Shown here: piece by piece, positions 19,877-33,406 of the stretch | Position numbering within the stretch: position 1 is the stretch's first letter | Layout of the letters: every line of letters begins with the position of its first letter | From: a virus | DNA: 35,811 nt | IMG/VR virus record: IMGVR_UViG_3300035459_000030 | Span: 1-35,811 of that record | Strand: one strand, 5' to 3' | Position numbers and translations under genes: made by a program | The notes under the pieces: model-generated | Seen by the model: only the letters and a program-made list of their open reading frames with translations | Database searches by the model: none | What the model was told of the DNA's origin: nothing

Positions 19877-22046
19877 ATTCCACCTCAATTCCCATATCTT
19901 TCAACTTAGCCTCCACTATCTTGTAACGGTCAGAGAGTTGAGGCTTCCCGCCTCGCATACCCCACTCCCCTTCAAAACAAGAACTATGGAACACCACCTT
20001 CTGTACCTCGGCCAACTCAACCCCGCCCGTTATTTGAGCCTCCATGTACGACGACCAGCCCTTCAACCCAGCGCCCCGGGGATGATCCATGAGATCTTCA
20101 ACCTCCCCGTCCAGGCCCTCGATATCAGGGTTCAGAAGGGGTGTACCGCATAGCGACCCGTTGGCAAAATCTCCGAGCGAATCTCCGCAGGTGATAGTGG
20201 TGCGCTTCTTCACTTCCTCTTTCATGACTAGCTTGATCTCGCCATAAGATTCGGCGTCGGAGCCAGCGCCTTCGATGTAGCCGTAAATCGGCCGCAGGTG
20301 GGGCGTGATTTTGACGCCGTCCTTGAAACCCATGCCGTACATCTCGGCCCGGTTGCGATGTGAAGGGGACAGACAACCTTCCGACCTACCCGTCTCGAAC
20401 TGCGTCTTGAACCGCCCATCCCCATCGATCACTCTCGTCATGGCGTCAATACCCGTACGCTTACAGAGCGGCTTGTCCTTCACAGAGGCCCGGAAGTAGT
20501 CCAGAACCTTTTTTCTTGCACTGGCGACAGTCGTTTTATGCCGCCTGGCCCAGTCGGATATTTCGGTTTCCGCATGATTCCGGGCATTCTCCAGATCTTC
20601 GCCCTTGGCCTGGTACAGCGGCTTCTCGGCCTTACGGATATACTCCCGGGCTGGATCCGCTGGCGGTGCCTTGAGCGGAGCATGAGGCTTGGCGGCCGCA
20701 GCACCAGGCTTGGCTGGAGCGGGGCGGGGAGCGGGGGCAGGGGCTGGCACCTTGGCCTCCCGGGCCTCCCGGATCTTCACGGCGTACCGATCCCGGATAT
20801 TGTTGGTCATCTCAACCATTTCGTTGTCGAGGGTCTCAAGATCGGACCCCGAGAGCTTTTCGGCTGCAATCTCACGGGCTTTATCCCGGAACTCAATCAC
20901 GCCGTCAATATCCGACGTAACAGAATGCTGCAGGGCGTACAACTTATCATTCTTCCCGATCTTCGCTTTTACCCGCAGGTAGATCGCCCGGATGCCGTCG
21001 CCAGCGACTTCGGCCTCGATGGGCTTGACCTCGTCGGGTGTCAGATCGGGCAACGCTGAAGCCGGAGCCGGCGCTGCACCCAGGCCACCGTCAGGACGCA
21101 TCCCAGGCCCAGGCATCGGTACACCGCTGGTGGGTCTGACCGTCACAAACCTAGCCGGCAGAGCCGCAGGACCAGCACCCGCAGCCTTCTTGCGCTCCCG
21201 TAGTTCTGCGATACGAATAGCAGTCACGGCACGATCAAACGTACTTTTATCCTCCGCTCGCATCAGAGCGCCTCGCATAGAATGAACTACATAGTCGTAA
21301 CGCTTCTTTCCGCTAAGACCCAATTTTCCAGCCATATCAAAAGCCAATACAGGATCATCGTCCGGACCAGGATAAGCCAGCTTCAGGCGCCTCATCCCCT
21401 CGCCCTCCCAGAATGTTTCAGGGGCGGCCGGGGCAGGTGTCCCGAATACAGCGTCCAGGATCGCCCGATCCCTTGCCTCCATCGTGGGACTGCGTGGGGG
21501 CGCCGTGGGGGCTTTTGGCGGTACAGCCGACACAGATGCCACTGCGGCTGGCTTTGGGGGCACTGTGGCCGTCCTGGGGGCGGGTGGCGCAACCGGAGCG
21601 GCGGAGACACGTGGCGGGCCGATCTTCTTGCCAGGCTCGAACACACCCGCCTTCTTGCGCTCCCGCAGCTCTGCAATGCGGACTGCAGTCATGGCGTGGT
21701 CGAACTTGTCACGGTCAGCACCGGAGAGCTTCGCTCGCAAGCCGGCCGCCATAAAATCATAAAGAGCCTTACCTTTCAGATCGTCGGGGGCGGCCGCCAT
21801 AATTTCAGGCAAGTCATGGTCTCCCCCTGGGTAAGCCTCGACCAACCTCCTTGCGCCGACCACGGTGAAAAATTTATCCCGGTCGTACGCAGGCGCCTTG
21901 GCCGGCGCCTCAGCCGCAGAAGCGGCAGCTGGTTCACCGCCGCCGCCACCTTTCGGGGCAAACTCGCCGCCACCCCCTTCCCCTTTCGGTACCCGGGGAT
22001 GCTCGGTCGGGTCGAAATCAACCTTGATCATTCTTGGCAGCGTCAT
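19857..22046 (-). CDS. Minor head-associated protein with possible ADP-ribosyltransferase-like C-terminus
   Basis: A 729-residue protein in three parts. Residues 1-40 carry HPRVPKGEGGGGEFAPKGG, a motif also present in the kinase-like protein upstream. Residues 55-440 hold Ala/Pro-rich linkers and repeated helical modules: RIAELRERKKA occurs twice, and the module with VKAKIGKNDKLYALQHSV is shared with the kinase-like protein. The C-terminal 200 residues read SEGCLSPSHRNRAEMYG, SYGEIKLVMKEEVKKRTTIT-CGDS and SSYMEAQITGGVELAEVQKV. This resembles DUF3626-type domains that have been linked to the ADP-ribosyltransferase fold, with possible Arg, Ser and Glu positions; I hold this link loosely. ATGA overlap with the Mu F-like gene. 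It may be packaged in the head and ejected. Confidence 0.6.
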   Translation of the reverse strand: MTLPRMIKVDFDPTEHPRVPKGEGGGGEFAPKGGGGGEPAAASAAEAPAKAPAYDRDKFFTVVGARRLVEAYPGGDHDLPEIMAAAPDDLKGKALYDFMAAGLRAKLSGADRDKFDHAMTAVRIAELRERKKAGVFEPGKKIGPPRVSAAPVAPPAPRTATVPPKPAAVASVSAVPPKAPTAPPRSPTMEARDRAILDAVFGTPAPAAPETFWEGEGMRRLKLAYPGPDDDPVLAFDMAGKLGLSGKKRYDYVVHSMRGALMRAEDKSTFDRAVTAIRIAELRERKKAAGAGPAALPARFVTVRPTSGVPMPGPGMRPDGGLGAAPAPASALPDLTPDEVKPIEAEVAGDGIRAIYLRVKAKIGKNDKLYALQHSVTSDIDGVIEFRDKAREIAAEKLSGSDLETLDNEMVEMTNNIRDRYAVKIREAREAKVPAPAPAPRPAPAKPGAAAAKPHAPLKAPPADPAREYIRKAEKPLYQAKGEDLENARNHAETEISDWARRHKTTVASARKKVLDYFRASVKDKPLCKRTGIDAMTRVIDGDGRFKTQFETGRSEGCLSPSHRNRAEMYGMGFKDGVKITPHLRPIYGYIEGAGSDAESYGEIKLVMKEEVKKRTTITCGDSLGDFANGSLCGTPLLNPDIEGLDGEVEDLMDHPRGAGLKGWSSYMEAQITGGVELAEVQKVVFHSSCFEGEWGMRGGKPQLSDRYKIVEAKLKDMGIEVEYAPDTR

Positions 22047-23127: not shown

Positions 23128-25305
23128 TTACCTCACCATCCCCTCGAGCTGAGAGATGCCGTAGTCGCAGGCTTCTTTCCAGTTCTTTTCGAATTGATCC
23201 ACGGTGACGTGGCGCTTCGCCAGGTCGGCGGCCCCCACCCCCTGGCCGTAGTGCTCCTTAACCAACTGACTAAACTGCGGACTGTTCACGAACGCCTTGA
23301 CCTTGGCGACGTCCTCTTTTTTGACCACCTTATTGACACGGTCGCCCGTCAGGGCAGCACAATATGTGTCGCAGTTCGAAGCGCACCGGCCCAGGATGTG
23401 AGCATGCGGCTCGCCCCGGCCGGCCTCCAGGCCGACCAGGCCATTGTCGACACCCCGCATCTCACCCGTGGCCTCGTCGTACATCCAATTGCCAGGGTTG
23501 CGGTCACGGTTGGCCAGGCCGTAGTCGAAGGCGATCATCTCAGAGACTGAAGCCCGCAGGGCCGGCGTATCCTTCACGCCGCCCCGGTGGTACAGCACAT
23601 CCGAGCCACGGATGCCAGTCTCCAGCCACGCCTGCATCGAATAGGTGCCCTTCTTGCCCGTCACCGGGTCGTCGGCCTCTTTGTACGAAGTCGGCTGGAG
23701 CACGTGGAAGCCGGCCAGGACAGAAGCTTCGTAGGCACAAACCTCGGAAGGCGGGAAGCCGTACCGGCTGCCCTCGCTGGTGCTGGTGCCCTTCATACAG
23801 GCATCGGCATCGCCCTCCACGTGCATGTGGAAGGTGGTATCGTCATTGATACCGCCGCCCTTGATCTCGTCGACCAGCGAAACAGGGTTGTCGTGGTACA
23901 TCTGCAAGAGCTTGGCGTGAACCGGGGACACACGGGCCAGAATCGAAGCGTGAAAAGCATCCCCACTCAGCACGCCATGGGCCTTCTTATCCTCCAGGGC
24001 CTTGGCCTGCGCCGCAACCCATTCGTTGCCGGCAGCGAGATAATGCTCATTCATCGCAGCGGCAGACATTTTATCGCCGCCCACCGCCTTCAGCTTATTC
24101 ATAAAAGCCAGCATGTCATTCTCGGGGTCGGAGCCGGCGTCCGCCTGTTTCCAGGCCCGCAGCACCTCGCCGCCTCGAATGCCATGAGCGATGGCAGTCT
24201 CAGCCAGGCTGTCGATATGCTTATGCCAGATCGGGGCTGCAATGGCCTTGCGCTCGTGGTCGTCCAGAGTAACAGACTTGACCGGAACCGGAGCCGCAGG
24301 CGGAATGGGCTTCTTGGCTTCACGGGCCGCCTTTACCCTGTCGTCGAACTCGTTTACAGCGTTCTGGGCGATTGAGTCAATCTCGTCCATCTCGCCCGGG
24401 CGACCATTGCGCTCTAAAATATCCCTGACCTGCTGATGAAAATACACTATCCCAGTCAGATCTCGCCCAGCTTTATGCTGGAGGGCAAACAGCTCATCAT
24501 TCTTGCCGATCTTGGCCTTGGCCTTCAAGTACATACTACGGATGGCGTTGGTGGCTACATCGGCCTTGATATTAGCCACCTCGGTTGTGCTCAGGTCTGG
24601 CAGCCCGGAAGTGCCAGTGCCCGCCGCAGCCGGAGCTGAAGCGCCGCCAAAGGCGCCCCCGACCGGGCGTACGGCAAAGCCCTTGGGTGCAGGCTTCGCC
24701 GCCGGAGCAGCCGCAGGCGCTGCAGCTCCAACGTGCTTGGCCTTGATGCCGCCAGCGCCACGCCAGCCGGCCACACGGAGCTTCTCTCGCATGGCCTTGA
24801 ACTCGGCGCCCTTGCCCTCTATATCGGCCGCTCTTTGTACAAAGCCGGCCATGTATTTGAAACCTTCCTCTGGATCCTTAGAAGCCCCGATATCAATGGC
24901 GTCCCGATAAGCCTGCTCGAAGTTTGAAGGGTCCATGGCTAATTCGTCTTTGCCATAGTCCCTCATCTGGCGGATGGCGTTGGCATAATGCTTGGCCTTG
25001 AACCTTGCCACCGATTCCTTGCCGCCCGTACTAACGTCCGCCGTGGCCGGGTAGTGCGGCTTCTTGGCAGCCGGAGCGGCTGCGGCAGCCCCAGCGACCG
25101 CACCGCCCTTGGGAGCGAACTCGCCCCCGCCCTTACCGCTGGGAACCCGGGGATGCTTGGTGGAGTCGAACGCCTTATCCAGATCGTCTGGCCAGACCAC
25201 CTTGATCATGCGTGAGCCAGGCACCGTCTCGATCTCCACCTGCTCCAGATGCTTGGTGTGGTGCCGTACAGCCAGTTTCAATTGGTTCCGGATAGAGACC
25301 TTCAT
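23128..25305 (-). CDS. Kinase-like protein (PI3K/HipA-related fold) with phage N-terminal modules
   Basis: A 725-residue protein. The start is ATG at 25305 (MKVSIRNQLK) with GGGAGGTG upstream and ATGA overlap with the portal stop; 46 extra open codons upstream are rejected. Residues about 42-65 carry STKHPRVPSG then GGEFAPKGG. The middle holds helical modules with KAKIGKNDELFALQHK, shared with the 729-residue protein downstream. The C-terminal 230 residues look like an atypical kinase: ACMKGTSTSEG (candidate ATP-binding Lys near 503), EVCAYEASVLAG (Glu), VLQPTSY, then ANRDRNPGNWMYD near 600 and GVDNGL near 620, equivalent to the catalytic and metal-binding loops. Catalytic residues appear intact. 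The substrate is unknown. Position suggests a virion-associated or ejected enzyme. Confidence 0.7.
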   Translation of the reverse strand: MKVSIRNQLKLAVRHHTKHLEQVEIETVPGSRMIKVVWPDDLDKAFDSTKHPRVPSGKGGGEFAPKGGAVAGAAAAAPAAKKPHYPATADVSTGGKESVARFKAKHYANAIRQMRDYGKDELAMDPSNFEQAYRDAIDIGASKDPEEGFKYMAGFVQRAADIEGKGAEFKAMREKLRVAGWRGAGGIKAKHVGAAAPAAAPAAKPAPKGFAVRPVGGAFGGASAPAAAGTGTSGLPDLSTTEVANIKADVATNAIRSMYLKAKAKIGKNDELFALQHKAGRDLTGIVYFHQQVRDILERNGRPGEMDEIDSIAQNAVNEFDDRVKAAREAKKPIPPAAPVPVKSVTLDDHERKAIAAPIWHKHIDSLAETAIAHGIRGGEVLRAWKQADAGSDPENDMLAFMNKLKAVGGDKMSAAAMNEHYLAAGNEWVAAQAKALEDKKAHGVLSGDAFHASILARVSPVHAKLLQMYHDNPVSLVDEIKGGGINDDTTFHMHVEGDADACMKGTSTSEGSRYGFPPSEVCAYEASVLAGFHVLQPTSYKEADDPVTGKKGTYSMQAWLETGIRGSDVLYHRGGVKDTPALRASVSEMIAFDYGLANRDRNPGNWMYDEATGEMRGVDNGLVGLEAGRGEPHAHILGRCASNCDTYCAALTGDRVNKVVKKEDVAKVKAFVNSPQFSQLVKEHYGQGVGAADLAKRHVTVDQFEKNWKEACDYGISQLEGMVR

Positions 25306-28253
25306 CCCGCACCTCCCTCGGTCATCGGTGTCGGCAGCGGGGGAACCATGGGAATCATGCGAGCCTTGTACACGTCCACCGCTCGCTGCAGAGCGTTTGC
25401 GACCGCCTGCTCGTCCTCCAGGCAGTTGCGAATGTCGGACCACAGGTCGTGGTTGCCGATAATGAGATAAACCGAATCGATCAACTCGGGGTTCAGCGGC
25501 CGGCCCCTGACAGCGTCCACAAATGTGCTGTGCAGCTCCTGGTCGGCCTTGACCGGGAAGGCCAGGTCGCTGTCGATCAGCACCGGCCGGCCGTCGTCAT
25601 CCGGGTGGGTCAACCAGTTTTTGTTGAAGCGGTCGACCTGGCCGGAGATGTAGTCCAGCACCGCCGCCTGCTGCACCCAGGCTTCGTCGTATTCGTTGAC
25701 GTCCTTACGCTGCTCCCGGCCCTGTACGTAGTGCTGAATCGAGCCAGGCTTGCCGTCCAGTTCGTCCATCCAGGTGACCGGCACCAGGTAATGGTTCACG
25801 TCGGGCGCCAGCTCCCGGTCGAGAAGGTAAACCGCCTCGGCCCGCCGGTACATCTCGCCTCCCACCCACTCCTGCAGATCCTTCTTCTCGCCGTCCAGCG
25901 GCTTCCAGACCGCCGGCCTGGGTTCCTGGTTGACCCCACCCACAGATACGATCATGGCGTCATTGGCGCCCTGGTGCGGCATGGGTACAGCCAGCGGGTG
26001 GGTGACCGGGGCACCGTAATACTGCTCGTCCAGAGCGTCCACCCCGCAGGTCTTAAACAAATCCAAGCCGGCCAGGAACTTCTCAGCCAGGCCAGCGTCC
26101 TCGAGCTTGTCGTAATAATGCGGATCCTCTTTTAAGTGGTCGAGCGCCACCTGGGCGATCTTCGCCTGATCGCCGCCCAGCGTACCAGCGTGCTCCTGCT
26201 CCTCTTTCAAGCCAGCAAACCACTCAAACATGGTGATCTTGTCCCAGTCGACCCCGAGCTGCTCACCCAGGTCGAGCATGGCATCTTCCTGCGCCTCTTC
26301 GTTGTCGAGCGACTCGGCATCGGTCACCGGATCGCCGGCAGCGTCGTCAGCGCCCAGGGCCTTCTTCACCCGCAGCGGCTGCTTGAGCACCGATACCATG
26401 TGGTTGAGCACCTGAACGGTCTTGTGGTCTTTGACGTCGATAGCGCCGTGCAGTCCACCAGGCTTCACGCCAATCGGGCCATCCAAACCACCGCCACCAT
26501 CTGACCCGTCGTCCTGTGCAGAACCCTTGCCGCCCAGGGGAGCCATCTGCTGGCCCTTCTCGCCGCCCAGCGGCTCCATGTTGATGCCGCCCCGGTATTC
26601 GTCCAGGGTGATGCCGCCAATCTGGAAGCGGGTGGCAAACTTGGCCTCTTCTTTGTCGGGGTCGATGCTCTCTTTGGGGAACATCAGTTTGAAGAACGTG
26701 CCATCGTAGCCGTTCTCAGTCAGCGTCTCATTGAAACAGCCCTCGATATACGACTGCAGGGGACTGATACACATACGGTAAAAGGCCGAGCTCATCGCCT
26801 CAGCAAAGCCCTTGCCCCCCAGCATGCCCTCCGGAGCCTCACCTACCTCGGATTTCGGGATGCCGGCCGATATGCGTACGGCGTTTGAAGCCACGTCGTA
26901 GGTCTCCTGGTTGAAGGTCATATCCTTGACCGCAATCTGGGTCATGCCGGCAGGCATAAATCGCACCCTGGCCGCCCGTTCTTGCAGATTGCCGCCCATG
27001 CGGTCGTTGTATTCGTCCTCGTACTGGAATATCTTCTCAGGGGAAGTCCACTCGGGCGGAGAAGCCAGCATCATCTCAGGCAGCGTGCCGGTAGTGTACT
27101 TGGCCTGCTCGTAAGTCCACAGGTTGGCCAGCAACAGCACAGCGCCTATGCTATCCTCGATGAACGTCTTGCCATAAGGCGCATCGGGCCGCAGGTAGCG
27201 GGGCCGGTACAGAAGCTGGCGCGTGTTGAGATACATCCTCGGCGTGCCCCAGATCACCTGGGTGAAGGCCGGAGCCGGCGGCTGCGGTTGCTCGCCTCGC
27301 TCGTCGATCACGCTAAAGATGGTCGAGCCGTCAATGATCCGCAGGCCGACCACCGGGGCGTTAGCCAGCTTCGCCAGCTTGCCCTTGAATAGCTTATCGT
27401 GCTGGATCGCATCGCCGTCGATCTCAGTCATCTGGTGCTGAGTGAGCGATTCGCCGCAGTTACGGCAGCGCTTCTCGCTGACGTCAGTCTTGGCTAAGTC
27501 GTAATGGTAAACATTGGCCTGACCGCAATTGGTACAAAACCAGCGCACCTGCGGGATAGCCGTCTCGTTCTCCCAGATATGGGTCAGGTCGCAGGGCTTG
27601 TAGACCTTGCCCTTCAGCATGCGCTGCGGCTCGCCCGAGATATCACGGATGCGGTACAGCGCCGGCGCATCGTAGGCCAGAACGTTGAAGATAAAACGAG
27701 AGAGCCAGACCGGCCAGGGGTTGAAGCGGTCAGGCTTGGTGGTCATCCATTCCATTTCGGGTATCTTAACCGGCTGGTCGTTCTTATCCACCAGGGTCGG
27801 GTTGAACGCCTTCAGCTCCTCGGTGGGCAGCCGGATGCAGAGAGCGACCTCCGGCACGTTCAGGGCGTAGTTCTTCAGATCGCTGAACGCCGTCAGGTTG
27901 TAAGCCAGGCGGGGACTGATGGTGCTGTTGACAGACGGCACGTACTGGAATGAGCGTGGCTCGGCATTGCGCTGCTCTTCCGAGAACGTCTCGTTCGTCC
28001 AGGGCCGGCCAGGCCCCATCCATTCATTGGCCCAACTGCCCGGCACGTTGTTGTGCCTCGGGGGCCGCAGCGTATCGACTACCTCGATTGGGCCATTCGT
28101 GCCATTATTGGACTGTACACCCGTGGGTGTTGACAAGCCGGTCGTGACGTTTACCGGGTGAGCCGGCGCCTGCGCCAGACCGCCCAAGACCGGGACGCCG
28201 GGCGCTTTCCTTAGCCCGTCTACAAAGCCGTTTACGGCTTCTCGTAGTCCCAT
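25302..28253 (-). CDS. Portal protein with C-terminal kinase-like domain
   Basis: At 983 residues this is about twice the usual portal length. Residues 1 to about 590 form the portal: WPVWLSRFIFNVLAYDAPAL, the YRPRYLRPDAPYGKTFIED clip/wing segment, and RISAGIPKSEVGEAPEG with a stem-crown helix. A Cys cluster (CTNCGQ then CRNCGES near 235-265) may bind zinc. Residues about 640-760 contain ALDHLKEDPHYYDKLED, a motif seen in other phage structural proteins. Residues about 780-900 look like a kinase: AVWKPLDGEKK (Lys), RRAEAVYLLDREL (Glu), VPVTWMDELDGKPGS, DYISGQVDRFNKNWL (catalytic loop) and LIDSDLAFP (metal site). Strong GGAGGG site. The fusion puts a kinase-like domain at the DNA-entry vertex of the virion. 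Confidence 0.82.
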   Translation of the reverse strand: MGLREAVNGFVDGLRKAPGVPVLGGLAQAPAHPVNVTTGLSTPTGVQSNNGTNGPIEVVDTLRPPRHNNVPGSWANEWMGPGRPWTNETFSEEQRNAEPRSFQYVPSVNSTISPRLAYNLTAFSDLKNYALNVPEVALCIRLPTEELKAFNPTLVDKNDQPVKIPEMEWMTTKPDRFNPWPVWLSRFIFNVLAYDAPALYRIRDISGEPQRMLKGKVYKPCDLTHIWENETAIPQVRWFCTNCGQANVYHYDLAKTDVSEKRCRNCGESLTQHQMTEIDGDAIQHDKLFKGKLAKLANAPVVGLRIIDGSTIFSVIDERGEQPQPPAPAFTQVIWGTPRMYLNTRQLLYRPRYLRPDAPYGKTFIEDSIGAVLLLANLWTYEQAKYTTGTLPEMMLASPPEWTSPEKIFQYEDEYNDRMGGNLQERAARVRFMPAGMTQIAVKDMTFNQETYDVASNAVRISAGIPKSEVGEAPEGMLGGKGFAEAMSSAFYRMCISPLQSYIEGCFNETLTENGYDGTFFKLMFPKESIDPDKEEAKFATRFQIGGITLDEYRGGINMEPLGGEKGQQMAPLGGKGSAQDDGSDGGGGLDGPIGVKPGGLHGAIDVKDHKTVQVLNHMVSVLKQPLRVKKALGADDAAGDPVTDAESLDNEEAQEDAMLDLGEQLGVDWDKITMFEWFAGLKEEQEHAGTLGGDQAKIAQVALDHLKEDPHYYDKLEDAGLAEKFLAGLDLFKTCGVDALDEQYYGAPVTHPLAVPMPHQGANDAMIVSVGGVNQEPRPAVWKPLDGEKKDLQEWVGGEMYRRAEAVYLLDRELAPDVNHYLVPVTWMDELDGKPGSIQHYVQGREQRKDVNEYDEAWVQQAAVLDYISGQVDRFNKNWLTHPDDDGRPVLIDSDLAFPVKADQELHSTFVDAVRGRPLNPELIDSVYLIIGNHDLWSDIRNCLEDEQAVANALQRAVDVYKARMIPMVPPLPTPMTEGGAG

Positions 28254-28285: not shown

Positions 28286-29866
28286 TCAAAAACCCTGAAT
28301 AATACTACCCGCCACCTGGGGCCGTACCCGGGCTGCCCGCTCGGCGTTCGATTTCTTCAACGCCTCAATCCACTTATCGATACTGGGCTGGCTGCCTTCC
28401 CAGAAGGCCATGACCACGCCGTCGCCGTCATCGGTGGAGCGGCCGATGCGCTCCTTGATATCATCCTTCGACTCCATGATGATCTTGCCGCCGCTCTGCT
28501 CTTTCCAGTGTACGGAAGTCAGGTCGCCGGTCAGGTTGGTGGCCAGGGCGTCGCCCTGATCTTCGTCGGGGGGCAGCGCCACATGGAAACCGTTGGCCGG
28601 GTCGAGCAACTCCCGCATGTGCCACCAGGCTGCCGCCCGCAGGTTGGCAAAGCCCAACTCGTGCGTGCTGTCCAGGGCGTCAGTCTTCTCGGCGGCGTTG
28701 AACGCCACTACATTGCAATGCTGCTCCCGTAGCCGATCGAACACCCCGGCCCCGATGCCGATCACGTCCACCACGGCATACCCGCCGTAAGCGTCAAGAA
28801 TCCCTTTGATACGGCCGGTGGTCTGCATGGTATCCTCAAGGTGCATCTTCCGCAGCTCTTTGATCACGAACTCGTAACGCAGGGCCAGCGACGTGGCGTC
28901 CTCGCCAGACCTGGCGATGTCCGAGCCTACGCAGGTGAACTGCAGGCCGGCAAAGTTGTGATCTTGCTGCGCGTACCACTCCTCATTGGCCTTCTCCACC
29001 CAGGACAGGGGAATGACGCCGTCTTTCTCGCTCGAAGCAAAATTACCCAGCACCCGGTTCTGGTACGCAGCCGACTGCTCGCCCCACTGCTTGATACGGA
29101 AGTTCGCCCACTCCTGGTTGAGCCGGCCAGCTGCGATGACCTCGGCCAGGGTGATGTGACGCACGGACCAGTCCTCGTAGCCGTTCTTGCGGCTCTGGAT
29201 GTCGTAGAACCGCCCGGCCGGCTCGCCAGGCGTACTGACCGCCAGCCAGTAGCAGTCGCCAGCGCTGAAGGCGCCCTCGGCGCTGTCCCAGGTATCGACC
29301 GGTATCTCCTTGCTCTCGTCGAACACGTACAGCATGCGCTCGGCGTGGGCGCCCTCGATCAGGGCGGAGTTGTCGGATGCCAGGCAGAACGCCTCGCCCG
29401 TGTCCAGCTTCAGATTCAGCTCCTGCAGCTCCAGGCGCTCGTCGAACGGCTGGCGGCCGATCACATCCCACCTCAGCCGGCGTGCCCACTTGTGTACTTC
29501 AGGGAAAAGGAACTTGGTGAGCTGGCGCCAGGCACTGGCCGTGATAGGCACCTTCCAATCGTAGTCGCCGTCGTTCACCAGGGCAAACCACAGAATGATG
29601 AGAGCCACCACCGCCGTCTTGCCCACGCCGTGCGGACTGCGGACTGACAACCGCCGCAGGGCTGGCAGATCCGTGGCGATCTTGGTCTGGTACGGAGCCG
29701 GCCCCTCGCCAGGGCGCCAATTGATACAGTCCCGGATGAAACCCGCCGCATCATACCGGTATCGCTCTTTGAAGCGCTGGTAGGCCGTGCGCTCGTCCCC
29801 CGCCTTCCCGGCCCGCCGCCGCAGCTCGAGCTGTGCCCTAGCCTGGATTTGCAGTGACGTCGGCAG
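28286..29866 (-). CDS. terL: Terminase large subunit
   Basis: The DNA-packaging motor ATPase and nuclease. The uninterrupted frame from a CTG at 29866 gives 526 residues. Walker A is PHGVGKT near 78-84, Walker B MLYVFDE near 178-184, and the RNase-H-like nuclease begins VGSDIARSGEDAT near 313-325, followed by VVDVIGIGAGV and the final GDALATNLTGD region. The APYQTKIATDL segment (Q-motif) lies upstream of the first TTG at 29650, so a start at that TTG would remove a needed part. Between 29905 and 29651 the frame has no ATG, GTG or TTG. CTG at 29866 follows GGGAG by six bases and is my preferred start. It overlaps the end of the small subunit gene by 29 bases. Confidence 0.88.
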   Translation of the reverse strand: MPTSLQIQARAQLELRRRAGKAGDERTAYQRFKERYRYDAAGFIRDCINWRPGEGPAPYQTKIATDLPALRRLSVRSPHGVGKTAVVALIILWFALVNDGDYDWKVPITASAWRQLTKFLFPEVHKWARRLRWDVIGRQPFDERLELQELNLKLDTGEAFCLASDNSALIEGAHAERMLYVFDESKEIPVDTWDSAEGAFSAGDCYWLAVSTPGEPAGRFYDIQSRKNGYEDWSVRHITLAEVIAAGRLNQEWANFRIKQWGEQSAAYQNRVLGNFASSEKDGVIPLSWVEKANEEWYAQQDHNFAGLQFTCVGSDIARSGEDATSLALRYEFVIKELRKMHLEDTMQTTGRIKGILDAYGGYAVVDVIGIGAGVFDRLREQHCNVVAFNAAEKTDALDSTHELGFANLRAAAWWHMRELLDPANGFHVALPPDEDQGDALATNLTGDLTSVHWKEQSGGKIIMESKDDIKERIGRSTDDGDGVVMAFWEGSQPSIDKWIEALKKSNAERAARVRPQVAGSIIQGF

Positions 29867-30361: not shown

Positions 30362-30717
30362 GATGTCAATTTCGACCTCATCGCCGCCAGCACCTGGGCA
30401 TACGTGCTGGTTACATTGGCCGTCGCAAAGCCCTGCGCCGCCAGCCATTGGTTGAGCTGCAATCGTATCCCGGCCGGAATAACCACAATATAAGTTGCTC
30501 CCGACAGATCCATCGCCCTGGCCTGTAGCACCTTCGCAAAATCTGCAAAAACATTCTGGATATTCGTGACAGCATCGGACGCTACACCCGCCAGGTCGAA
30601 GGCGCTCAATGGAACCGTATTAATCTGCACATCGCAATAACCATTGCCGTCCGGCGCAACCTGCGTGACATACTCAACAATCTGGCCGAACAGGGGAATA
30701 GGCGCGTATTTAGGCAT
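30358..30717 (-). CDS. Hypothetical protein downstream of the DGR reverse transcriptase
   Basis: A 119-residue protein overlapping the end of the reverse transcriptase gene by 8 bases. It begins with PKYAPIPLFGQIVEYVTQVA and has a helical remainder (AVTNIQNVFADFAKVLQARA, IPAGIRLQLNQWLAAQG). It is not a recognisable Avd four-helix accessory protein, although its place (next to the RT) and helical C-terminal half make an accessory role possible. It could equally belong to the terminase side. Confidence 0.6.
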   Translation of the reverse strand: MPKYAPIPLFGQIVEYVTQVAPDGNGYCDVQINTVPLSAFDLAGVASDAVTNIQNVFADFAKVLQARAMDLSGATYIVVIPAGIRLQLNQWLAAQGFATANVTSTYAQVLAAMRSKLTS

Positions 30718-31744
30718 AGTGACTGATCACTCCTTTCGCTAATCGCAAACTTACTTTTGGCTTGACATATTTATTGTAAAAATGATAACTATTACTCCTC
30801 TTGATCCAGCCCCAATAAGACACCACTGCACATGCATCTTGATAGGTCATCATCTTTTTACCGCCAATCTTGGCCATCCTTCTTCGGATGCGTAGGGCAT
30901 TCCGTTTGCGCAGTATTGTCTTATCCCGGAAAAAACGTAATCCCAAAAAATCAATTGCTCGCTTCGTTATCAAGAATACCTGCCAGTCCTGTTTGAGCGT
31001 TAGGTGAAGCGTGGCGAGATATTCGCTGATAGCTATCCTTACCTGGTGTAGTTTGCGTTTATTGCTGCCCGGGATAACCAAATCGTCAACGTAGCGCAGG
31101 TAATACTTCGCTCCAAATTTCTCTTTAATCAAATGATCCAGGTCCTGTAATAAGAAATTAGATAGCCACTGGCTGGTATAGTTCCCGATCGGCAAACCCT
31201 GCGGATTACTATCGATAATTATGTCCAACAGCCACAGGCAGTCGGCGTCCTTGATGTGCTTCCTTAGGATTGCCTTGAGTATTTCTCGGTCAATGGATGG
31301 ATAAAATTTAGAGATATCCATCTTCAGGCAATATTTGGTGCCTTTGTAATCTCTATCCAGCCATTTGCGCAGCGCCTTCTGGGCGTAGCTCGTTCCTCGC
31401 CCAGGAACGCTACCGCAGGTATATTCATACATTCCGCGTGTAAATACGCCATGCAGTTGCAGCATCAGCGCCCAATGGATGATTTGGTCGGGATAATAAC
31501 GCGGTTTGTAAATCGTGCGCTCCTTGTTGCTCGACCGATCCTGGATGGTTTTGATCGTGTATGGCGACGGGATATAGGTTCGCCCCGTCAAAATTTTTTG
31601 AATTTCCCTTGCATAGAAATCCGCGTTATCCATAATTCTCTTGACATACCTTCTATCGCGCTTACCAATCGAGGAACGCTTGATCGCCTCCTTGATATTT
31701 TCGATCTCACAAACCTTTTCGTAGATGTGACCAGTTCGTTTCAT
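30710..31744 (-). CDS. DGR reverse transcriptase
   Basis: A 344-residue reverse transcriptase of the diversity-generating retroelement class. It begins MKRTGHIYEKVCEIENIKEA, like other DGR RTs. Motif A is KMDISKFYPSID (Asp143). The motif-4 region GLPIGNYTSQWLSNF at 183-197 has the IGN-x-x-SQ form diagnostic of DGR enzymes. The polymerase aspartates are RYVDD at 217-221. No maturase, nuclease or thumb extension beyond the compact DGR size. It copies the TR RNA with errors opposite adenines. The start has AAGAAGG upstream. The TR lies 127 bases before the gene, in the usual target-TR-RT order. Confidence 0.95.
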   Translation of the reverse strand: MKRTGHIYEKVCEIENIKEAIKRSSIGKRDRRYVKRIMDNADFYAREIQKILTGRTYIPSPYTIKTIQDRSSNKERTIYKPRYYPDQIIHWALMLQLHGVFTRGMYEYTCGSVPGRGTSYAQKALRKWLDRDYKGTKYCLKMDISKFYPSIDREILKAILRKHIKDADCLWLLDIIIDSNPQGLPIGNYTSQWLSNFLLQDLDHLIKEKFGAKYYLRYVDDLVIPGSNKRKLHQVRIAISEYLATLHLTLKQDWQVFLITKRAIDFLGLRFFRDKTILRKRNALRIRRRMAKIGGKKMMTYQDACAVVSYWGWIKRSNSYHFYNKYVKPKVSLRLAKGVISHYA

Positions 31745-31870
31745 AAGACCTTCTTATTAGCCTCAAGGTGGTTCGGTTTCCCTACTAAACCCTGCTCTTT
31801 ACGGCCTGATTTTCACCAAGAGGTGGGGAATATAAGATGCAAATATTTCATAACCATCTCTAATAAGAGT

Positions 31871-31974
31871 CCGGCCGCCGATGTTGACGTTCGCATTCCC
31901 GGAGGTGTTGTTCAGGTTCCAGTAGAACAGGCCCGCATTCGACCCGTTGTTCCAATTCGCACCAAACATCGCAA
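31871..31974 (-). repeat. DGR template repeat (TR)
   Basis: A 104-base segment matching the 3' end of the target gene without gaps. It differs at 17 positions, all T on the plus strand, that is, A on the coding strand (17 of its 24 adenines). No G, C or T of the coding strand is changed. Read in the target frame it codes for ten Asn codons, the usual adenine-rich AAC/AAT design that allows broad substitution. Confidence 0.97.
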
Positions 31975-32024
31975 GCACGCATCCTATATCCCTTTTTGAT
32001 TTATAAAGAACAAGAAAAGCAAGA

Positions 32025-32042
32025 CTGGGGGGAGACCCCCAG
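32025..32042 (-). other. Hairpin downstream of the variable region
   Basis: A perfect 7-bp GC-rich stem with a 4-base loop (GAGA on the plus strand, TCTC on the coding strand). It lies 27 bases past the VR, just beyond the target stop codon. Known DGRs carry a GC-rich hairpin or cruciform with a tetraloop here that raises retrohoming efficiency. The T-rich sequence beyond it could also make it a terminator. Confidence 0.7.
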
Positions 32043-32047
32043 ACCCC

Positions 32048-33406
32048 CTAAAGAGCCTTTCTAAGAAGCCGGCCGCCGAGGGTGACGCCCGCATCCCCGG
32101 AGGCGTTGCTCAGGTTCCAGGAGAACAGGCCCGCAGCCGACCCGCCGCGCCAAGACGCACCAAACAGCGCAATTCTTTGTCCGGTAGAGGAGTAATAGTA
32201 GTCTGAGTAGTATGTGCTTGATGCGGCCCCGACAGCGGTCGGGAGCGCTGCGTATGGATGTGCGGCGTCGTAGCCGAGCGCGGTCGAGTAACCATCTATT
32301 GAGCCATCGGCGTACGAGAGTTGTTCGTACGGGGAAGCAAACAGGTTGCTGGCGTAGCTGGCCGGATCTGCGCAAACCCAGGCCTGGCGCTCGTTGATAT
32401 TCAGCCCATCGACAAACTGGTAAATCGAGCCCCACGGATTTTCGATGCCCCGGTAAACGCAGGGGTGTTTGGCATCACTGTTGCTCGCGATGGAGCCAGT
32501 TTTAGCGACAACTGCATCACACGCACCGGATTTCCAGGCGACGTTATAAAGCATATTACCAATTGCGATATTGACCGCAGCGCCATCAAAACTAACGGCT
32601 TTGTTACTTCCATCGTAAACATCGATGGAAGTGATATTACGTCCATAGCAGATCTGGTTTCCGCCTTGAGTTGTGCCAATTCCAATTGGCTGCCCAACCG
32701 TAAATGCGGCGGCGTTTGCATTGGAGACCACGATCCTGTTGACTCCGCTCTCTGCTACAGTCGCCGTGTGCGTGGCATCATATTGCCCACCCGTCCAACC
32801 CTGCATAATGCTCTGGCTGTTCAGTGTGGCGAACTCAACCAAAAACAATGTTTGCAGCACATCTATGGCGTGGATGTCGAGTTGCTGATAACCCGCGCCG
32901 TTGGCCTGTGCGTATCCCCGGATATCAACAATGTTTTTGTTGATCAATGGATAGACGCCACTCTTGCTTTCTAATTTATTGGCGCCGCTAAGCGAGGCAT
33001 TGTATTTACCGATGTCCACATACGGCAGGATCAACCCACTGGCGCCAACAAAACATTTAGGCAGGTAGGCTGAGCCAAATGGGTTGCGCGAGATGCGCCA
33101 GGTCATTGCTGGAGCATTGTTCTTTTTCTCGATGTAGAATTTAGGGATACGGATAAAAACGTTGCCCAACCCATCAGTGACCTGAGTGATGCTACGGTAA
33201 ATGTCGGCATTGTCAAAGTTGTTGGTAACTACATCACTATCTACACCGGCAGCCGCAACCATGCCAACTGACGCATCGGTGCGGGTCAATGTTGGGCTGG
33301 AACCGCCATTCCAAGATACGCCATAAATGGGCGCAACCCCTCCCCCTCTCAGCGTCCCCTGCCCTGGAACTTGCCTTCCAATTGTTGGCAATCTCAATCC
33401 TGGCAT
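32048..33406 (-). CDS. DGR target protein with variable C-terminus
   Basis: A 452-residue protein. It begins with a short attachment segment, then YGVSWNGGSSPTLTRTDAS, a beginning seen in phage DGR tropism-type proteins. The C-terminal half (VYRGIENPWGSIYQFVDGLN, then ALFGASWRGGSAAGLFSWNL, NASGDAGVTLGGRLL) has the C-type-lectin / formylglycine-enzyme-like pattern with W, G and D residues that surrounds exposed variable sites. The last 35 residues are the VR. Eight of the ten template Asn codons have been replaced (S, R, G, A, S, D, G, T). A strong GGAGGTG site precedes ATG at 33406 and overlaps the end of the homing endonuclease gene. It is probably a tail-tip receptor-binding protein. Confidence 0.92.
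   Translation of the reverse strand: MPGLRLPTIGRQVPGQGTLRGGGVAPIYGVSWNGGSSPTLTRTDASVGMVAAAGVDSDVVTNNFDNADIYRSITQVTDGLGNVFIRIPKFYIEKKNNAPAMTWRISRNPFGSAYLPKCFVGASGLILPYVDIGKYNASLSGANKLESKSGVYPLINKNIVDIRGYAQANGAGYQQLDIHAIDVLQTLFLVEFATLNSQSIMQGWTGGQYDATHTATVAESGVNRIVVSNANAAAFTVGQPIGIGTTQGGNQICYGRNITSIDVYDGSNKAVSFDGAAVNIAIGNMLYNVAWKSGACDAVVAKTGSIASNSDAKHPCVYRGIENPWGSIYQFVDGLNINERQAWVCADPASYASNLFASPYEQLSYADGSIDGYSTALGYDAAHPYAALPTAVGAASSTYYSDYYYSSTGQRIALFGASWRGGSAAGLFSWNLSNASGDAGVTLGGRLLRKAL
32069..32172 (-). repeat. DGR variable region (VR)
   Basis: The 104-base counterpart of the TR at the 3' end of the target gene. It ends on the coding strand in an unmutated GGCGGCCGG block, with a divergent sequence beyond, which fits an initiation-of-mutagenic-homing site. 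All changed positions are adenines in the template. Confidence 0.97.

Follow-up and report, generated by a model that had tools for sequence, protein, structure and literature searches.

A predicted PI4K2/FAM20-like kinase encoded beside a kinase-bearing phage portal is a candidate head cargo

Introduction

Why would neighboring head genes of a phage each encode a kinase-like domain? The question is raised by a 35.8-kb virus record (IMG/VR IMGVR_UViG_3300035459_000030, positions 1 to 35,811, hereafter the window), in which a 725-residue protein, P1, and the portal protein encoded before it, P2, both end in such a domain. A preliminary description of this DNA attributed the arrangement either to duplication or to an enzyme pair carried in the virion. 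Enzymes that enter the cell with phage DNA decide the first minutes of infection and its outcome against host defenses, and head cargo has so far been recognized mainly through fusion to MuF or portal proteins. Head-linked effectors are already known: passages of PMC5694885 and PMC5512222 provide precedents for head-packaged enzymes in T4 Alt and capsid-targeting sequences, passages of PMC5512222 also for effectors fused to MuF or portal proteins and for polyvalent proteins, and passages of PMC9503650 and PMC5576092 describe ADP-ribosyltransferases (ARTs) near portals and MuF polymorphic toxins, respectively. Here we propose that P1 is probably a kinase that the phage packages in its head as effector cargo and would deliver at infection, and whose packaging, ejection, catalysis and target we infer.

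The C-terminal domain of P1

The P1 sequence has a short HPR-GEFAPKGG tag towards its N-terminus, followed by helical-looking modules and, at the C-terminus, a predicted PI4K2/FAM20-like kinase domain (Table 1). The motifs previously quoted for the C-terminus are all present (ACMKGTS at residue 502, EVCAYEAS at 521, DRNPGNW at 601 and VDNGL at 619), and the interval first described as kinase-like, 23128-24000, corresponds to residues about 436-725. In alignments P1 keeps all five catalytic positions (K505, E521, D601, N606 and D620), that is, the N-lobe Lys and helix-C Glu, the DxxxxN loop and the (I/V)DNG Asp expected of PI4K2/FAM20-like kinases. At the DNA level, the DRNPGNW pattern has a single match in the window even with one mismatch allowed, and none in 100 shuffles.

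Searches with P1 as a single protein against INPHARED phages, plasmids and PDB sequences gave nothing significant, and related-locus searches with P1 or P2 as the lone query gave no relatives. Kinase relatives were therefore gathered with degenerate DNA patterns for DRNPGNW, NxDRNPGN and NxDRHPGN; the pattern DRFNKNW had zero matches, and many contig matches to the DRNPGNW pattern were set aside as chance frames. The relatives fall into classes A, B, C and D. Class A brings together the C-termini of large actinobacterial proteins and a set of phage proteins, several of which carry a MuF, minor capsid or ART domain; several class C domains lie on MuF proteins. A MuF and a kinase domain share one polypeptide in L125, L130, L132 and L009, and a minor capsid domain is joined to a kinase in L024. 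Class B proteins (L016, L017, L034 and others), HipA-like in appearance, have the DRNPGN/DRHPGN loop in common with P1, yet they form a separate branch in an exploratory tree and were not retained as its kin.

Since sets gathered in this way are loop-biased by construction, the key control keeps the loop fixed. With ANRDRNPGNWM held in place, none of 200 shuffles of P1 (mean 9.9 bits, maximum 20.5) reached the 31.2 bits that P1 itself scores against the profile of related phage kinases. Aligned by hhalign with portal- and MuF-fused phage kinases, P1 matches at 96.3% (E=1.6e-9, 137 columns), and the alignment is colinear from the glycine-rich start to VDNGL. The Pfam family PF00454 matches P1 with E=2.7e-5. 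A profile built from class C together with P1 and P2 retrieves, among solved structures, PI4K type II (4hnd, 1.8e-9), FAM20 (4kqa, 3.2e-6) and FAM20B (5xom, 1e-3); leaving P1 out of the profile gives 5.2e-8 for PI4K type II and 1.4e-4 for FAM20. The profile matches and the shuffle control bear out the kinase-like C-terminus originally noted for the 725-residue protein, which is very likely a kinase. On sequence grounds we classify it as a divergent, atypical kinase of the PI4K-type-II/FAM20-like group, presumably active.

Two observations on the wider family are recorded here. Class A kinase domains end very large chromosomal proteins in Nocardiopsis and Streptomonospora (L044, L067, L088), an arrangement reminiscent of polymorphic toxins. 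A single open reading frame (ORF) in L128 (2-3088) combines Zeta toxin, cytidylyltransferase-like, GNAT-looking and kinase domains, separated by repeated DQARD.HGRFASE stretches.

The portal kinase and the apparent accessory nature of P1

The C-terminus of P2 matches the class C profile at 1.8e-15, and still at 4.9e-9 when its motif is masked; against PF00454 it scores 14.3 bits for the whole protein and 17.1 for the domain, under the gathering score of 27.1. Both of these neighboring head genes thus encode a kinase-like domain, as first described, and the portal domain is predicted to be a kinase of the same superfamily as that of P1. We fetched 80 loci, many of them fragmentary contigs, with a terminase profile that included the terminases of TurkishDelight and phiAsp2. 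The portal kinase is present in six of these, at 39-61% identity and with its Lys, D-R, Asn and Asp retained. A tblastn search at 1e-3 detected P1 in none of the 80, and P3, the DUF3626 protein encoded three genes after P1, went undetected in the six portal-kinase records examined for it. Relatives that keep this kinase have other cargo, or none detected, at the place of P1. Because the portal kinase persists while P1 goes undetected, P1 looks like accessory cargo, and the portal kinase appears to be a conserved, related but separate enzyme. An enzyme pair carried in the virion accordingly stays plausible for this phage, whereas a fixed pair does not agree with the relatives.

As to the portals themselves, P2 has a zinc-ribbon-like insert at residues about 205-292 (about 27380-27640) that is lacking in the relatives L242 and L244. 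A LigT/2H phosphoesterase domain precedes the kinase domain in the portals L296:6723-9932 and L287:5301-8528, and an intein interrupts the MuF-type protein encoded at L296:9929-11476 (Intein_splicing 2.4e-9).

A recurring N-terminal tag

The tag of P1 has the form FDxxxHPR...GEFAPKGG in common with P3. The N-terminal stretches of the two proteins match at 62% over 48 aa, and their C-termini differ, being a kinase in P1 and DUF3626 in P3 (1.8e-8, above the cut-off). P3 has repeated helical-looking units of its own and is possibly another effector. A regular expression for the tag gave 13 matches in 10 of the 1074 ORFs of the 80 terminase-chosen loci (shuffled sequences, mean 0.7 matches; reversed sequences, 0). 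All ten ORFs belong to L240-L244, the closest relatives, and lie from the portal to the ORF just past MuF. In L242, for example, a tag-type stretch precedes an extra portal domain, a 310-aa protein, the ART of a MuF protein and an ART-like protein of 179 aa; for ART, the matches fall short of the Pfam cut-offs.

Loci chosen by the pattern GxFAPKGG were selected by the tag and not by the portal; portals make up seven of the 20 tagged proteins scanned there, and MuF occurs in one. Tagged proteins include a portal joined to Acb1 (anti-CBASS, 5.4e-45) and followed by an HPR-type tag (L207, 1-2625), a portal with InPase (L150), an ART (L141) and a topoisomerase IB (L156). Five consecutive ORFs in L029 (216-6327) each carry a W..HPR..GKF-type tag: the portal, then an ART-like protein, a class A kinase, a ParB-like-looking protein and an ART. 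The best tag matches in annotated phages fall in the portals of the Pseudomonas phage Orimi01 (portal-tag-ART, C-terminal ART 5e-19), of PhiXhv-5 and of a Helicobacter prophage (portal-tag-LPD3); in the Gordonia phage Boopy the match is in gp78, the gene after the portal, with an ART in gp80 two genes on.

The tag could serve for docking, mark a protease site or simply act as a linker. More broadly, and quite tentatively, HPR-x(n)-G-x-F-(A)-x-K-G-G could be a general loading/release signal by which unrelated tailed phages bring diverse enzymes to the head at the portal, P1 being one tagged cargo kinase among kinases, ARTs, Acb1-type nucleases, ParB-like and DUF3626 proteins as candidate cargo.

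The proposed role of P1 and its alternatives

The P1 gene lies inside the portal-protease interval, the position expected of portal-proximal virion cargo. The minus-strand order is terminase, portal P2, P1, P5, MuF-like P4, P3, protease P7 and a capsid-like protein, and stop/start overlaps (ATGA) at portal/P1, P5/P4 and P4/P3 suggest translational coupling. In the mechanism that we propose, P1 would be made together with the portal through coupled translation, its tag and helical part would place it within or on the prohead, close to the portal, and it would exit with the DNA at infection. Its kinase would then phosphorylate a host component, which could be a protein, a nucleotide or a lipid, and thereby blunt defense or redirect host functions. 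The packaging half of this mechanism is proposed because of the gene layout and the precedents of T4 Alt, capsid-targeting sequences and MuF/portal fusions.

Several observations weigh against P1 as a cargo kinase. Its scores against PF00454, 24.7 bits for the whole protein and 26.5 for the domain, are under the gathering score, and no close homologue was found in sequence searches. With the seven DRNPGNW residues masked the score falls to 2.8 bits, which is noise level, so the kinase claim rests on the loop together with colinear weak similarity. Three of the six loci with a portal kinase are near-identical contigs (L240-L242), which leaves few independent lineages, and the many fragments among the 80 contigs make the absence of P1 weaker evidence than it appears. 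The tag is short, perhaps no more than a linker. Taken one by one, its matches in annotated phages are weak (tblastn E 0.02-3), and what counts as evidence there is where they lie.

A role in assembly, with one or both kinases phosphorylating proteins of the head (portal, MuF, protease) while it is being built, would agree with the conservation of the portal-fused kinase across related phages and with the coupling of P1 to the portal. We consider it unlikely: P1 and P3 go undetected in relatives having the same portal kinase, and the ART, Acb1 and topoisomerase cargo at tagged loci suits host-directed functions better.

A lesser chance still is given to a polymorphic toxin-immunity pair, in which P1, carried by the phage or prophage, would act as the toxin and the 107-aa P5 would be its immunity protein. 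The P5 gene follows P1 after only 3 bp, and class A kinases occur at the C-termini of large Nocardiopsis proteins. However, P5, a candidate accessory or immunity protein, had no match in domain and family profile scans; the same kind of scan found no MuF domain in P1 (the MuF-like P4 is encoded two genes downstream), and no integrase or lysogeny gene was seen among the part of the ORFs that was scanned.

It is about as improbable that P1 is a pseudokinase or an ATP-binding structural module of the head. Its branch in the kinase tree is very long (2.63), and where its kin have the KP-GE motif P1 reads KGTSTSE, a degraded version, but the catalytic positions are all retained.

Origin of the two domains

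Portal kinases form a clade of their own (support 100/100), and P1 joins the portal and class C kinases, opposite classes A and D (99/97). This split rejects a close relation of P1 to class A, and the long branch leaves its exact place unsure. Grouping P1 with all portal kinases together is not rejected by the approximately unbiased (AU) test (p=0.33), nor, then, is an origin of P1 in an ancient split that predates the diversification of that clade. Duplication as a local event, in contrast, receives no support and is largely refuted: had the portal kinase been duplicated in tandem in this phage, both domains should share one half of the tree, as they do, but P1 and P2 as sisters are rejected (AU p=0.00012) and their pairwise score of 39 is not significant (matched by 35 of 300 shuffles), which makes such an event very improbable as the source of the P1 domain.

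Comparison with known systems

PI4K type II and FAM20-like kinases (PF00454; 4hnd, 4kqa, 5xom) have Lys, Glu, DRxxxN and (I/V)DNGL in the same order and at the same spacing as P1; they are eukaryotic lipid or secretory kinases, whereas P1 is encoded by a phage head gene and has no sequence-close solved relative. The SCO1664 family (TIGR03843), proteins of unknown function, resembles the P2 kinase in the N-lobe (2e-8, 33.9 bits) and P1 weakly (0.015, 14.7 bits), both far under the curated cut-off of 172.4, and neither protein is a member. As in the MuF toxins and MuF- or portal-fused effectors of the passages cited above, P1 pairs a putative effector with the portal/MuF region and its kin show exchangeable C-terminal enzymes; unlike its kin, which share a polypeptide with MuF, P1 is separate and has the tag in place of MuF. 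A single enzymatic domain was found in P1, compared with the two or more distinct effector domains of polyvalent proteins. T4 Alt and the internal proteins (PMC5694885) offer an analogy of operation, a short N-terminal signal ahead of head-packaged enzymes, with no sequence relation claimed; those enzymes are packaged, and P1 is predicted to be. In Boopy and Orimi01, as in P1, the tag stands after or inside the portal and effector-like domains follow, but the cargo differs: ARTs in gp80 and Orimi01, and in gp78 a ParB-like hint (E=0.055) with a possible kinase-like stretch, weak and recognized by eye.

PI4K-like kinases are absent from the passages of PMC5576092, PMC5512222 and PMC9503650 that concern such effectors, and the word "phosphatidylinositol" does not occur in PMC5512222. 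What appears to be new is a PI4K2/FAM20-like kinase as separate, tagged, putative cargo beside a portal with its own kinase. The recurring tag also appears new, its letters having been found in no phage paper of the open-access literature, a scope outside which most subscription journals and supplements lie. If short tags do mark separate cargo genes, cargo would become predictable from sequence, an idea testable in the cultured phages Orimi01 and Boopy, and PI4K2/FAM20-like kinases would be an added family among head-delivered effectors.

Gene neighborhood and other features of the window

Coordinates are collected in Table 1. The MuF-like call for P4 is below curated cut-offs, with a PHROG head morphogenesis match at 1e-10.

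Table 1. Positions of the head genes and of predicted features of P1, P2 and P3 in the window.
Feature	Position	Strand	Remarks
Terminase ORF	28286-29650	minus	
P2	25302..28253	minus	983-aa portal protein; DUF5661 and kinase-like C-terminal domain
P2 kinase-like region	25539..25970	minus	residues about 762-905; K784, D874, N879, D894; conserved in related portals
P1	23128..25305	minus	725 aa from ATG; overlaps portal stop codon by ATGA
P1 N-terminal tag	25102..25170	minus	residues 46-68; FDSTKHPRVPSGKGGGEFAPKGG
P1 helical-looking module	24277..24792	minus	residues 172-343; 41% identical to P3
P1 kinase-like C-terminal region	23131..23913	minus	residues 465-725; profile-supported core about 472-625
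K505	23791..23793	minus	predicted ATP-binding lysine in ACMKGTS; motif and alignments
E521	23743..23745	minus	predicted helix-C glutamate; SEVCAYEAS aligns with REAGAWEVA
DRNPGNW catalytic loop	23485..23505	minus	D601 and N606
D620 of VDNGL	23446..23448	minus	predicted metal-binding Asp; corresponds to IDNGLAFP of PI4K2A
P5	22801..23124	minus	107-aa ORF directly after P1
P4	22043..22804	minus	253-aa MuF-like minor head protein
P3	19857..22046	minus	729 aa; tag, helical module, DUF3626 C-terminus
P3 N-terminal tag	21945..22016	minus	FDPTEHPRVPKGEGGGGEFAPKGG
P7	18443..19330	minus	predicted head maturation protease (XkdF-like); closes portal-protease interval

The terminase ORF begins at the Walker A region, and the N-terminal part known from TurkishDelight and phiAsp2 is missing from the frame. 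The window also contains a diversity-generating retroelement on the minus strand (30710-33406), whose reverse transcriptase matches phrog_1423 at 4e-107. Its template repeat lies at 31864-31974; the variable repeat, located at the end of a tail protein, occupies 32062-32172. Of the 19 mismatches between the two, 18 fall on template adenines.
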